In this document: piece by piece, positions 26,252 through 30,608 of the stretch
Numbering within the stretch: position 1 is the stretch's first letter
How the letters are laid out: each line of letters starts with the position of its first letter
NCBI GenBank assembly: GCA_003280605.1
Contig: QCEM01000007.1
Span: 1 to 64,000, forward strand
DNA: 64,000 nucleotides
DNA from: SAR116 cluster bacterium AG-355-O21
GTDB taxonomy: Bacteria; Pseudomonadota; Alphaproteobacteria; Thalassobaculales; Thalassobaculaceae
Direction of reading: 5' to 3'
Program-made: the position numbers and the translations under genes
Notes under the pieces: model-generated
Database searches by the model: none
What the model was told of the DNA's origin: nothing
What the model saw: the letters and a program-made list of their open reading frames with translations, nothing else

Positions 26252-27811
26252 ATGGATGACTACGCACAACTGCACCCCGGTGCCTTTGCCGCCCGAACGC
26301 CGGACCGGCCGGCGGTCATTATGGCCAATGGCGGCCGGGTGATTAGCTTCAGCGAATATGAAGCCCTATCGAACCAATGTGCGCATCTGTTGCGGCAACT
26401 GGGATTGGTGCGCGGCGACAGACTTGCGATTTTCATGGAAAACCACCCGCTTTACCTGCCTCTGACTTGGGGTGGTATGCGCGCCGGCTTGCGGGTGACG
26501 GCGATCGCAACCCACCTTAGCGCCGCTGAAATTGACTATATTTTAGACGATAGCGCAGCACGTGCGCTATTCACCAGCGCCGCCAAAGCTAATATTGCCG
26601 GCACCTTGGTCGCCGCAACAGTTGCGCCGGCAGCACGCTTCATGCTCGATGGTTCGATTGCCGGTTTTGGTGATCTTGACCAGGCCCTTGCGGCCCAACC
26701 CATAACGCCGATCGCCAATCAATCTGAAGGGGTTGAGATGTTGTATTCCTCCGGCACCACCGGGCGGCCCAAAGGCGTCAAAAAAGTCTTACCCGAGCTG
26801 CCGTTTGGCGAGCCTGCCAATTGGCATCGTGAGATGATGGCGCTCTATGGTGTGGATGAAAATGCTATTTACCTGTCGCCGGCGCCGCTTTATCACGCCG
26901 CACCGCTGATGTTTAACATCCGCAACAATCGCTTTGGCGGCACCTCGGTGATCATGGAGAAGTTTGACGCCGAACAGGCTTTAGCTCTGATCGAAAAATA
27001 TAAAATCACCCATAGCCAATGGGTGCCGACGCATTTCATTCGCATGTTGCGCCTTGCCGCCGAAATTCGCGGTAAATACGATCTATCCAGTCATAAGGTC
27101 GCGGTCCATGCAGCCGCCCCCTGCCCAATTGATGTGAAACGGCAGATGATTGAATGGTGGGGACCGATCATTCGTGAATATTATGCTGGTTCCGAAGGCA
27201 ATGGCTATGTCGCGATTGACAGCCATCACTGGCTTCAGCGCCCCGGCTCCGTGGGCAAAGCCCTGATTGGCACCTTGCGAATTTGTGATGAAGACGGTGC
27301 GGAGGTGCCGACCGGCACCCCAGGCACCGTTTATTTTGAGGGTGGACCGGTTTTTGATTATCACAATGACCCGGAAAAAACCGCGCAATCGCGTCATCCA
27401 AAAGGCTGGAGCACGCTGGGCGACGTTGGGTATGTTGATGCCGACGGGTATTTATTTTTAACCGACCGGCGCGCCTTCACGATCATCTCCGGCGGCGTCA
27501 ATATCTACCCCCAGGAATGTGAAAATCTGCTCACCGGCCATCCCCGGGTGATGGATGCAGCCGTCATTGGCGTGCCGAACGCAGAGTTCGGCGAAGAGGT
27601 AAAAGCCGTGGTCCAGCCTGTTGATATGGGCGACGCAAACGCTGATCTGGAAGCCGAGCTTATGGCCTATTGCCGGCAGCACTTAAGCCATGTCAAATGC
27701 CCTCGGACAATCGATTTTGTTGAAAAACTGCCTCGACAAGAAAACGGCAAGCTCTATAAACAAAAGCTCCGCGACACCTATTGGGTTGGCCACGCAAACC
27801 AAATCGTTTAA
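26252..27811 (+). CDS. AMP-dependent acyl-CoA synthetase/ligase
   Basis: 519 residues, ANL superfamily. The P-loop-like motif is MLYSSGTTGRPKGVKK, the A5 region is REYYAGSEGNGY, the hinge motif GDVGYVDADGYLFLTDRR, and the C-terminal catalytic Lys lies in LPRQENGKLYKQKLR. It activates a carboxylic acid to its CoA ester at the expense of ATP to AMP, supplying substrate to the adjacent acyl-CoA dehydrogenase. Layout resembles FadD3/FadD17-like ligases of side-chain acids. It is followed by an AT-rich segment with a T7 run. Confidence 0.9.
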   Translation: MDDYAQLHPGAFAARTPDRPAVIMANGGRVISFSEYEALSNQCAHLLRQLGLVRGDRLAIFMENHPLYLPLTWGGMRAGLRVTAIATHLSAAEIDYILDDSAARALFTSAAKANIAGTLVAATVAPAARFMLDGSIAGFGDLDQALAAQPITPIANQSEGVEMLYSSGTTGRPKGVKKVLPELPFGEPANWHREMMALYGVDENAIYLSPAPLYHAAPLMFNIRNNRFGGTSVIMEKFDAEQALALIEKYKITHSQWVPTHFIRMLRLAAEIRGKYDLSSHKVAVHAAAPCPIDVKRQMIEWWGPIIREYYAGSEGNGYVAIDSHHWLQRPGSVGKALIGTLRICDEDGAEVPTGTPGTVYFEGGPVFDYHNDPEKTAQSRHPKGWSTLGDVGYVDADGYLFLTDRRAFTIISGGVNIYPQECENLLTGHPRVMDAAVIGVPNAEFGEEVKAVVQPVDMGDANADLEAELMAYCRQHLSHVKCPRTIDFVEKLPRQENGKLYKQKLRDTYWVGHANQIV

Positions 27812-27910: not shown

Positions 27911-28473
27911 ATGCATAAAATCCTGAGAAAGTTTAAACGCGAGCATAAGTCGAGTGCCGAATTGCTAAATATATTCGAGCATCAAATCGATTTGATTGCT
28001 GCCGCCGAGCATCCTGATATCGACATTGTCGACGGGGTGATTGAGTATTTCGCAAGCTTTTTGCTGCATGTGCACCACCCCAAAGAAGAAATCGTCTTAG
28101 CGGCCTTAAAGGCGCGGGTGGCAGATGAAATTGCCGAATTGTCGGCGATCAACAACGAGCATTTCGCCTTTCACCAACGCATTCACAACTTCGCCGAGAC
28201 GGTTCGGGGGGGGGGTTGGGAGAAGGCTCATTGGTGATGGAACGCCAAGCTTTTGTTGATTTAGCGCATGAGTTCATAGACCTGGAGCGCGCCCATATGG
28301 CGTTGGAGGAAAAAGTTTTTTTCCCGCTCGCCCGTGAATGCCTGACGGCGGAAGATTGGCAGGCCATTGAGGCTAGCATCGCCGCCGACCCGGCCTTCAA
28401 GCCGGCGGTGAACCGCCGCCATGCCCAGCTGCGTCGAGAAATTCGTGTCTGGCAAAAAGAAAACGACGGTTAA
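27911..28473 (+). pseudogene. Hemerythrin-like protein split by a frameshift at a G10 tract
   Basis: Two frames together make one hemerythrin (HHE) domain protein of about 187 residues. The first (27911-28237) has the helices with LLHVHHPKEEIVLAAL and INNEHFAFHQRIHNF, then runs through the G tract and stops. The second (open from 28216) continues with FVDLAHEFIDLERAHMALEE and KVFFPLARECL, supplying the last His and Glu iron ligands. The tract at 28206-28215 has ten G; eight or eleven would join the frames as TVR-GG-LGEGSLVMERQ. Such proteins bind a non-haem di-iron centre and sense or store O2 or NO. The break may be a sequencing error, a true inactivation, or phase variation. The tail overlaps the convergent synthetase gene by four bases. 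Confidence 0.75.
28206..28215 (+). repeat. Homopolymeric G10 tract in the hemerythrin gene
   Basis: Ten consecutive G residues inside a coding helix-helix linker. It is the longest mononucleotide G run I noticed in the window and marks the exact point where the reading frame is lost. Confidence 0.95.
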
Positions 28474-30608
28474 TCAACAACAATCAAAGCATCAACCACC
28501 GTCACACCTGCGCCGTCAGCATGCACGATCACAGGGTTAAGATCGATTTCGGCAAGATGATCACGGTGGCCAACCGCCAAGGTTCCAAGATCAACAATTA
28601 ATTGGATCAGCGCCGCCCGGTCCGCTGCCGGCTGGCCGCGATAGCCGGCAAGCAAATCCGCCAGCCGGCTTTCGGCCAGTAAAGCTGCGGCATCGGCTGG
28701 GGAAATCGGCAGTGGCGCGGTGCGGGTATCATCGACCAATTCTGCCAACACGCCCCCTGGCCCAACCGTCACCATCGGCCCAAAGGTCGGATCTCGGTAA
28801 ACCCCGACGATGACCTCAACGCCAGGGGCGGCCATCGCTTGCACCAAAACCCCATCGACCTGGATCGCTGCGGCATCAGCAGTCTGCATAAGTTTTTCAA
28901 ACTGCCGGCTCACGGCCACATCACCGATGACATTCAGCGCCAACAAGCCAACATCACTTTTGTGCGCCAGGTCCCTTGCCTGCCCTTTCAACGCGACGGC
29001 ACCGTCAATCTTGGCCGCTGCCGCGACGGCCGCATCGGCGGTCCGCGCCAAGCTGCCTTCGGCGATCGCCAAACCGTGTTGCCGCAGCCAGTCATGTGCC
29101 TGGTATTCAGCCAGCGGGCCAGGGTCTGTCAAAGCTGCCGGGCGGGCCACGGGCGGGACCGGAACGGCACTTTGGAAAGCCTTTCGCCGACAGCCATAAT
29201 CATAAAGCGCACGCGCCGCTGCGGCGCAGTTAAGTGGGTTGGTGAACAGCGGAAACCCCGAACTGGTCAACACCTCGACAGCGGTTGGATGTGGCACCGT
29301 ATAGGACCAGAAAAAAACCGGCTTATCGGTCGCGGCACGGACAGCTTGCAAGGCGCTGCGATCTTCTTCAATCCGTCCCGGCAAACGTGCCGAGGCGACA
29401 GCGATCACACTGCCAATGCCCGGGGCATGGCGTAACAGTTCAACCAGCCCGGCATAGCCAAGGTGATGGATCGCCTGGGCCGTCGCATCAACAGGGTTGT
29501 GCGAGCTGCCATAGGCCGGCAAATGGGCGTCAACAGACCTGCGCGTGGCCGCATCTAAAACCGGCACATCCAGGCCGGCCGCAGCGGCGTTATCGGCCAT
29601 CCAGCCACCGGCACCGCCTGAGGCGGTGAAAATCGCGGTGCTGGCATTGGCCGGCAATAGATCACCCATGAAGGCAAACCCGGCGGCCAGATCAACGGCC
29701 TGTTCAGGGGTTTCCGCCTCGATGATGGCATAATGCCGGAACATCGCCCGATAACTGCCATGGGCACCAGCAAGGGCGGCAGTGTGGGACAGGGCAGCAC
29801 GTTCACCTGCTGCCGACTTACCAACTTTGACGGCAATAATCGGCTTGCCGGCGCGCAGGGCCTTTTCGGCGGCACGCCGAAACACGGCGGCGGTTTTTAC
29901 ATTTTCTAAAAACAGGATGAAAACATCTGCTTCGTCCTGATCAACCAACCATTCAACCAGCTCGAAACTTTCGACCTGCGCTTCATTGCCCGTGGTGACC
30001 ACATGGCTAAAGCGCAGCCGCTTTGCCCGTCCTTGATCCAAAAATGAAAATCCGACACCGCCTGACTGGCCGATCACGGCAACACGGCCACTCCGCGAGC
30101 CTGCGGGCGGGTCAAGCGCACCATCAAGGTCAACAACCGGCGAAAAAGTCGGGGCCAGTTTGCTTTGTAAATTCGCAAACCCTTCAGAATTGGGGCCAAT
30201 AATCAGCATCCCGGAACGCGCTGCAATGGCCGCAATTTCGGCTTGCAAGTCGCGCCCCCCAGCGCTGCTTTCTTCTGCAAATCCGGAGGTAATAATTTGC
30301 GCCGCCTTGACCCCTTTGGCGGCACAATCATCAAGCACTGCCGGCACATGCGGTGCCGGCACGATGATGATCGCCATATCCACGTCGCCAGGCACCTCAG
30401 ATACGCTGGCATATGCTTTCCGGCCGGCCACCTCGGCGGCGCTGCGACTGATCGGGATAAGTTCGGCAGCAAAGTCATGGCGATCCATGACCGCAATGAG
30501 CCGCCCGCGCAGCGACGACATATCATCGCTGGCCCCAACAACCGCAAACCGGCGCGGCTGCAACAAGGCCCCAAAATCACGCTGGGGCAGGTCGGATGCG
30601 CCTGTCAC
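28470..30608 (-). CDS. ADP-forming acyl-CoA synthetase (fused alpha/beta, NDP-forming type)
   Basis: 712 residues: a CoA-binding domain (RFAVVGASDDMSSLRGRLI), two succinyl-CoA ligase-like domains with the phospho-His region, and a C-terminal ATP-grasp domain (from about residue 500: AEYQAHDWLRQHGLAIAEGS; DVGLLALNVIGDVAV). This is the single-chain acetate/pimeloyl-CoA ligase (ADP-forming) arrangement. It makes CoA esters reversibly. The GTG start lies six bases downstream of the acyl-CoA dehydrogenase stop, so it is the last gene of the PrpD-ECH-ACAD-ACAD-synthetase operon. Substrate is unknown; some family members act on lactate-, pimelate- or feruloyl-like acids. Confidence 0.88.
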   Translation of the reverse strand: MTGASDLPQRDFGALLQPRRFAVVGASDDMSSLRGRLIAVMDRHDFAAELIPISRSAAEVAGRKAYASVSEVPGDVDMAIIIVPAPHVPAVLDDCAAKGVKAAQIITSGFAEESSAGGRDLQAEIAAIAARSGMLIIGPNSEGFANLQSKLAPTFSPVVDLDGALDPPAGSRSGRVAVIGQSGGVGFSFLDQGRAKRLRFSHVVTTGNEAQVESFELVEWLVDQDEADVFILFLENVKTAAVFRRAAEKALRAGKPIIAVKVGKSAAGERAALSHTAALAGAHGSYRAMFRHYAIIEAETPEQAVDLAAGFAFMGDLLPANASTAIFTASGGAGGWMADNAAAAGLDVPVLDAATRRSVDAHLPAYGSSHNPVDATAQAIHHLGYAGLVELLRHAPGIGSVIAVASARLPGRIEEDRSALQAVRAATDKPVFFWSYTVPHPTAVEVLTSSGFPLFTNPLNCAAAARALYDYGCRRKAFQSAVPVPPVARPAALTDPGPLAEYQAHDWLRQHGLAIAEGSLARTADAAVAAAAKIDGAVALKGQARDLAHKSDVGLLALNVIGDVAVSRQFEKLMQTADAAAIQVDGVLVQAMAAPGVEVIVGVYRDPTFGPMVTVGPGGVLAELVDDTRTAPLPISPADAAALLAESRLADLLAGYRGQPAADRAALIQLIVDLGTLAVGHRDHLAEIDLNPVIVHADGAGVTVVDALIVVD

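Follow-up and report, generated by a model that had tools for sequence, protein, structure and literature searches.

The question raised by this locus is whether a gene that is interrupted by a long run of a single nucleotide is switched, decayed, decoded in an unusual manner, or simply recorded with the wrong number of letters. In the window, that is, the whole stretch of 64 kb of DNA analysed here, a tract of ten G residues (G10) on the forward strand at positions 28206-28215 divides a hemerythrin (HHE) gene between two reading frames. The upstream part (27911-28237, + strand) encodes 108 amino acids as printed, about 98 of them before the tract, and carries helices 1-3 together with the HHxKE motif. 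The downstream part (28216-28473, + strand) lies in the other frame and comprises 85 codons; these encode helix 4, on which the final conserved His and Glu lie, followed by the C-terminal helices. Both frames are open, and neither reads through the tract into its counterpart. The initial annotation had described this interruption at exactly this position and with halves open in different frames, and the split of the hemerythrin gene at ten G is confirmed. Its arithmetic, according to which eight or eleven G would restore one protein, is also right, as a single frame is kept if the tract is two G shorter or one G longer.

The tract is the longest homopolymer in the window and its sole G/C run of at least 8, in agreement with the earlier description of a long G run in an otherwise mixed sequence; the runners-up are one C7 among all G/C runs and one G6 among runs of G. 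Thus, a long in-gene G/C run sets the frame here while the downstream frame is intact, which is the arrangement looked for in a contingency locus. No other split gene stood out in the 64 kb, as judged from a greedy layout of unaligned open reading frames, and promoter and terminator signals did not exceed those of shuffled sequence.

The identity of the protein bears on what would be lost by the interruption. The upstream half matches the Pfam Hemerythrin profile (PF01814) with 28.9 bits, above the cut-off of 25.3, and the downstream half gives a weak match of 17.7 bits, under that cut-off. The HH and E of the HHxKE motif are conserved in 16/16 homologs, with K or R between them, and the late His and Glu, borne on helix 4, in all 15 unbroken homologs. 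The ligand motifs are present in the two halves, with HHxKE encoded before the tract and the late His/Glu pair after it, and the earlier statement that a rejoined protein would hold all iron ligands stands in outline. By profile and ligand motifs, the product appears to belong to the PF01814 HHE family. Among single-domain bacterial HHE/hemerythrin proteins, the nearest solved chains are YtfE, which the profile reaches at E 3e-4, and NMB1532, at E 0.005; what is shared with both is the character of a helical-bundle HHE protein. The best fold matches of the structure model of the ortholog are PF0695 (3cax, E 1.2e-3) and NMB1532 (2p0n). Identity with the YtfE/RIC iron-sulfur repair proteins was considered and rejected, since the ortholog stays far under the NCBIfam cut-offs (19.4 vs 254 bits for NF008221, the YtfE family, and 16.3 vs 204.7 bits for TIGR03652).

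The ortholog model, with a mean pLDDT of 84, places the bundle helices at residues 4-31, 38-70, 79-105 and 112-144. In this model, the tract codes for the equivalents of residues of about 100-102, where helix 3 ends, before a poorly predicted loop to helix 4. Because of this position, the printed upstream product would be devoid of helix 4 and its conserved His and Glu, and if the printed length is true, an ordinary di-iron site would not be expected from the first chain alone. One way around this would be a hemerythrin of two chains, in which a restart at TGATG (28235-28239, +), where the upstream stop overlaps an ATG of the downstream frame, makes a second chain of 78 amino acids with helix 4 that pairs with the first. 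The ribosome-site-like GGGAGAAGG (28218-28226) ten bases before it and the position of the break, which adjoins the modelled loop between helices 3 and 4, are consistent with such an arrangement. However, the one-chain ortholog has a Met codon at this position too (VMMER), so that the overlap is explained by chance, and no homolog is split at the site (one, L032, loses its frame earlier). A restart at TGATG with GGGAGAAGG is thus possible and chance is likelier, and among the explanations weighed here the two-chain protein is the least credible.

The ortholog itself shows what the gene looks like when it is whole. G001, a genome of the same genus, encodes an intact protein of 192 amino acids at the same place, between the same two neighbours as in the window, namely an AMP-binding acyl-CoA ligase upstream (26252-27811, +) and a convergent CoA-binding/ATP-grasp acyl-CoA synthetase downstream (28470-30608, -). 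In BLASTP comparisons with this ortholog, 45/97 residues of the upstream half (46%) and 46/86 residues of the downstream half (53%) are identical. As both halves match one intact syntenic ortholog, the break is either recent or not real. Synonymous change between the two genes is saturated or nearly so, and pN and identity were therefore used alone; pN is 0.37 in the upstream half and 0.29 in the downstream half. This similarity indicates that both halves have shared one constraint up to recent times, or share it even now, which makes a pseudogene of old date unlikely. The hemerythrin gene is real and, in living cells, most likely one uninterrupted gene.

A fixed pseudogene of recent origin, in which one slip inactivated the gene and decay has begun, is improbable rather than unthinkable. 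It would suit a small gene that evolves faster than its neighbours (46-55% vs 73-79% amino acid identity) and of which most relatives are devoid, a matching homolog having been found in 12 of 61 genomes. Nevertheless, the 85 downstream codons hold neither a stop nor an indel, conservation in this half equals or exceeds that upstream, and its codon bias is kept. The outcome of a dead gene, which had been foreseen from the sequence, is accordingly disfavoured.

Comparison with relatives had also been proposed as a check on the number of G residues. It gave an answer of another kind, as neither eight or eleven nor ten G are found there: in 17 homologous loci (16 genes), all from other species, no G/C run of at least 7 lies near the gene. 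Moreover, the codon covered by the tract is Val in 12 of the 15 readable homologs and Gly in none. Together, these two observations indicate that the tract is peculiar to one sequence, and a contingency tract conserved among these loci was rejected. Among 176 pattern stretches examined for viral copies, no relatives were found. Apart from the tract, one HHE homolog, L032 (JACZQV010000020.1, near 6183), loses its frame right after HHPKEDLVF, without a long run, as seen against its near twin L031.

The principal rival to an error in the printed sequence is real slippage. According to this explanation, which is possible and carries a substantial minority of the probability, the tract is a hypermutable stretch, and the cells either formed a mixed population or were caught in an off state. 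The on state would produce the full predicted di-iron hemerythrin, and the off state the fragment of 108 amino acids without helix 4 and its iron ligands; such a variant may be a selected contingency locus or merely a slippery run. The length of the tract, its place inside the gene and the intact downstream frame all speak for slippage, and a precedent exists in Campylobacter, where the hemerythrin-like Cj0045c carries G(9-11). This gene is assigned to the core phasome, being found in 94.3% of 35 C. jejuni and in all 10 C. coli (PMC6321876), and is described as phase variable and often polymorphic, including among NCTC 11168 isolates (PMC6700657). The C. jejuni hemerythrin HerA is reported to shield iron-sulphur enzymes from oxygen (PMC4257069).

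The likeness to Cj0045c lies in a hemerythrin-like protein and in G tracts whose lengths fall into one class. Unlike Cj0045c, whose tract length varies across many strains, the present locus is known from one consensus and has no conserved tract in relatives. Against slippage, none of the 16 homologous genes has the tract, in a comparison that took in one other genome of the genus and none of the species. In the literature, a search combining hemerythrin, phase variable and homopolymeric found PMC6321876 alone, and one combining homopolymeric tract, phase variation, frameshift and alphaproteobacteria gave nothing on an alphaproteobacterium by title. If slippage were true, it would place a phase-variable hemerythrin outside Campylobacter, in what looks like an environmental bacterium of Rhodospirillales type, which would suggest a hedging of oxygen or redox handling in that setting as well.

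The source genome, a draft of 2.58 Mb in 119 contigs with 84.4% completeness, contains further long runs. There are 47 G/C runs of at least 7 (35 of 7, 5 of 8, 3 of 9, 2 of 10, 1 of 11 and 1 of 12) and 86 A/T runs of at least 8 (78 of 8, 7 of 9 and 1 of 10). Among runs of at least 8, those of at least 9 make up 7/12 for G/C vs 8/86 for A/T (Fisher p 0.0002). The extreme G/C lengths are over-represented, and the tail is heavier than that of A/T beyond chance, which is a point in favour of slippage. On the other hand, G/C runs of at least 9 occur in all 36 family genomes searched, and the source genome is therefore not special. The idea that slippage stems from a lost mismatch repair system was rejected, as MutS and MutL are both present and intact.

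The 12 G/C runs of at least 8 in the source genome comprise 3 that break a frame, 1 in frame inside a glycosyltransferase gene, 2 at gene starts (in frame or ambiguous), 2 directly before an ATG and 4 in other non-coding or unclear places. The frame is broken in 3/4 of the interior in-gene runs, a set that excludes two in-frame or ambiguous runs, a C8 at the N terminus in L036 and a C11 lying before or within the start of an aminotransferase gene. Besides hemerythrin, the broken genes are a glycosyltransferase-like gene split at C9 (C1:107854-107862; L023 7855-7863), in which the part after the tract matches Glycos_transf_1, and a gene for a UgpB-like substrate-binding protein split at C8 (C43:6219-6226; L037 2020-2027), both parts of which match SBP families. 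The C9 of the former lies 2.7 kb from the C11 at the aminotransferase gene start.

Shorter runs and A/T runs behave differently. In-gene G/C runs of exactly 7 break the frame in 0/17 cases (30 of the 35 loci were classified; one called shifted proved to be a gene end on reading), and in-gene A/T runs of at least 8 in 0/8 (27 of the 86 runs were classified; one called shifted proved to be a gene boundary). Only the longest G/C runs thus break frames in the source genome. At a length of exactly 8, the breaks amount to 1/3 for G/C, counting L036, vs 0/8 for A/T, numbers too few to show an effect of G/C.

It is the survey of related drafts that tips the balance towards an error. In G018, the search for rpsI, encoding ribosomal protein S9, yielded no more than a pair of overlapping pieces, which meet at a G10 (L043 2005-2014). 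A search of eight genomes revealed one intact rpsI copy each in G000, G009, G021 and G029, and three genomes, all 59-69% complete, gave none or no match; the intact copies have mixed glycine codons where G018 has the G10. The same assembly shows tadA split at a G11 (L045 1996-2006) and mrdA, encoding penicillin-binding protein 2 (TIGR03423), split at a G9 (L042 2001-2009). In G029, smc is split at a G9 (L056 2006-2014), and a tlyA-like gene and others are split at G9-G10. The genes rpsI, tadA, smc and mrdA are generally regarded as essential, and the run length printed in them is therefore not the working one. Breaks in genes that cells cannot lose, and in comparable assemblies, are what a run-length artefact would be expected to leave, and G018 and G029 seem to present them.

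The survey covered most tracts of 12 genomes, including about half of those in G010, with tracts near contig ends set aside. For runs of exactly 8, a systematic listing covered G000, G001, G003, G005 and G021 only; these runs were examined in full for G000, G001 and G021 and in part for G003, with G005 represented by its runs of 9. As a first pooled codon model was weak for low-GC genomes, group models were used instead. With these, 122 runs of at least 8 were classified, giving 48 in-gene calls, 27 in frame and 21 shifted. These raw counts include a few calls that reading would drop: L067, an automatic shift that reads as a gene end or start, is still counted, and L164 (which looks like an intergenic repeat) and L167 (weak) were kept as shifts in the figure for the better assemblies given below. 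The automatic shifts at L098 and L154 likewise read as gene ends or starts. Shifted calls made up 5/5 of the in-gene calls in G029, 8/10 in G010 and 3/3 (automatic) in G000, and 0/2 each (raw) in G001, G016 and G033. In seven better assemblies (G002, G003, G012, G020, G021, G026 and G027, chosen by completeness and contig count), 12/14 raw calls are in frame vs 15/34 in the others (Fisher p 0.01, with a post hoc grouping). The splits would therefore appear tied to assemblies rather than to genes. In G010, G runs reach a length of 17, and one gene contains a pair of runs within a span of 65 bases (L085 2005-2069); these look like sequence artefacts.

Owing to this family control, in which the same breaks occur in essential genes of related drafts, a run-length error in the draft consensus is favoured over a real slippage variant, at about even confidence. 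In long G/C runs of G-rich codons, the number of G would have been miscounted during reading, amplification or assembly, and the true DNA of the hemerythrin gene would have another run length. The fragmented state of the source draft, the mostly in-frame runs of better assemblies and the lack of a homolog tract at the site add to this leaning, and the same family data count against slippage, as such tracts are widespread among these genomes and frequently out of frame in drafts, needed genes included. Published cases point in a similar direction. In Bifidobacterium, reads through G tracts met an Illumina artefact named 'G's end', and the G-tract length in the database differed from that of the main population (PMC9187656). 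For Propionibacterium acnes, sequencing error was named as a major concern for homopolymeric tracts (PMC4746626). Such tract artefacts of public genomes resemble the frames split at G/C runs in the present drafts. In P. acnes, unlike an artefact, most of the variation among tracts went with clades and was for the larger part genuine (PMC4746626).

Several observations weigh against an error. The essential-gene splits sit in other assemblies than that of the source genome, in which no broken essential genes were seen. Its three broken genes are all of dispensable kinds, with hemerythrin and glycosyltransferase being typical of phase variation; the split glycosyltransferase of the same genome in particular is in line with slippage, although dispensability counts for little, as most genes are dispensable. 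If Illumina reads were used, C8 is a short run for an error in the consensus, the rest of the window is clean, and the effect of G/C is not evident at the matched length of 8. The intact MutS and MutL can be set against an error too, though they neither support nor exclude slippage. Both readings offered by the initial annotation, phase variation and homopolymer error, therefore stay possible, with the comparative evidence leaning to error and phase variation unproven.

A further explanation would reconcile a true G10 with a working protein, namely recoding, in which the DNA has ten G and some transcripts or ribosomes slip, giving some whole protein. Slipping by -1 on the G run would bring the two frames together, and a review reports that slippage on poly-A rescues split genes in insect endosymbionts (PMC5009743). 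Recoding would also account for the G-run splits in essential genes of relatives. Nonetheless, it is quite unlikely: no stable fold was found after the G10 tract, where RNA folding is ordinary (z 0.56), and the frame of the ortholog is ordinary as well. In a study of E. coli and Buchnera, transcription insertions fell chiefly on runs of A and T, G-rich sequence seemed resistant to slippage, and no frame was seen restored (PMC5574713). By analogy with poly-A in endosymbionts, the G-run splits of the whole family, including those of S9, TadA, SMC and PBP2 in relatives, might all be real DNA decoded through poly-G slippage by RNA polymerase or the ribosome, a proposal somewhat more doubtful still than recoding at the hemerythrin gene.

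For the favoured reading, a run-length error, the consequences extend beyond this gene. In view of the splits in essential genes and the clustering by assembly, the printed length of a long G/C run in such drafts is no safe statement about a gene. Genes in drafts of this family that are split at a G/C run of at least 8 should not be taken as off or dead, because genes generally regarded as essential are split likewise. A cheap control is available before contingency loci are called in draft genomes, which is to ask whether core genes of the same assembly are split. This caution is a more useful outcome than a phase-variable hemerythrin.

Beyond the split genes, two further groups of long runs were observed in the source genome. 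A G12 (L024 2766-2777, contig C41) precedes the ATG of a cytochrome c gene by 2 bases, and a G8 (L034 1988-1995, contig C8) precedes that of a dehydrogenase-like gene by 4 bases. At such a ribosome-site position, a change in run length could tune the translation of these genes. Finally, L025 10027-10036 (contig C62) and L026 449-457 (contig C80) show a similar intergenic hairpin-like piece followed by a G run, on opposite contig strands; they are copies of one repeat with run lengths of 10 and 9.
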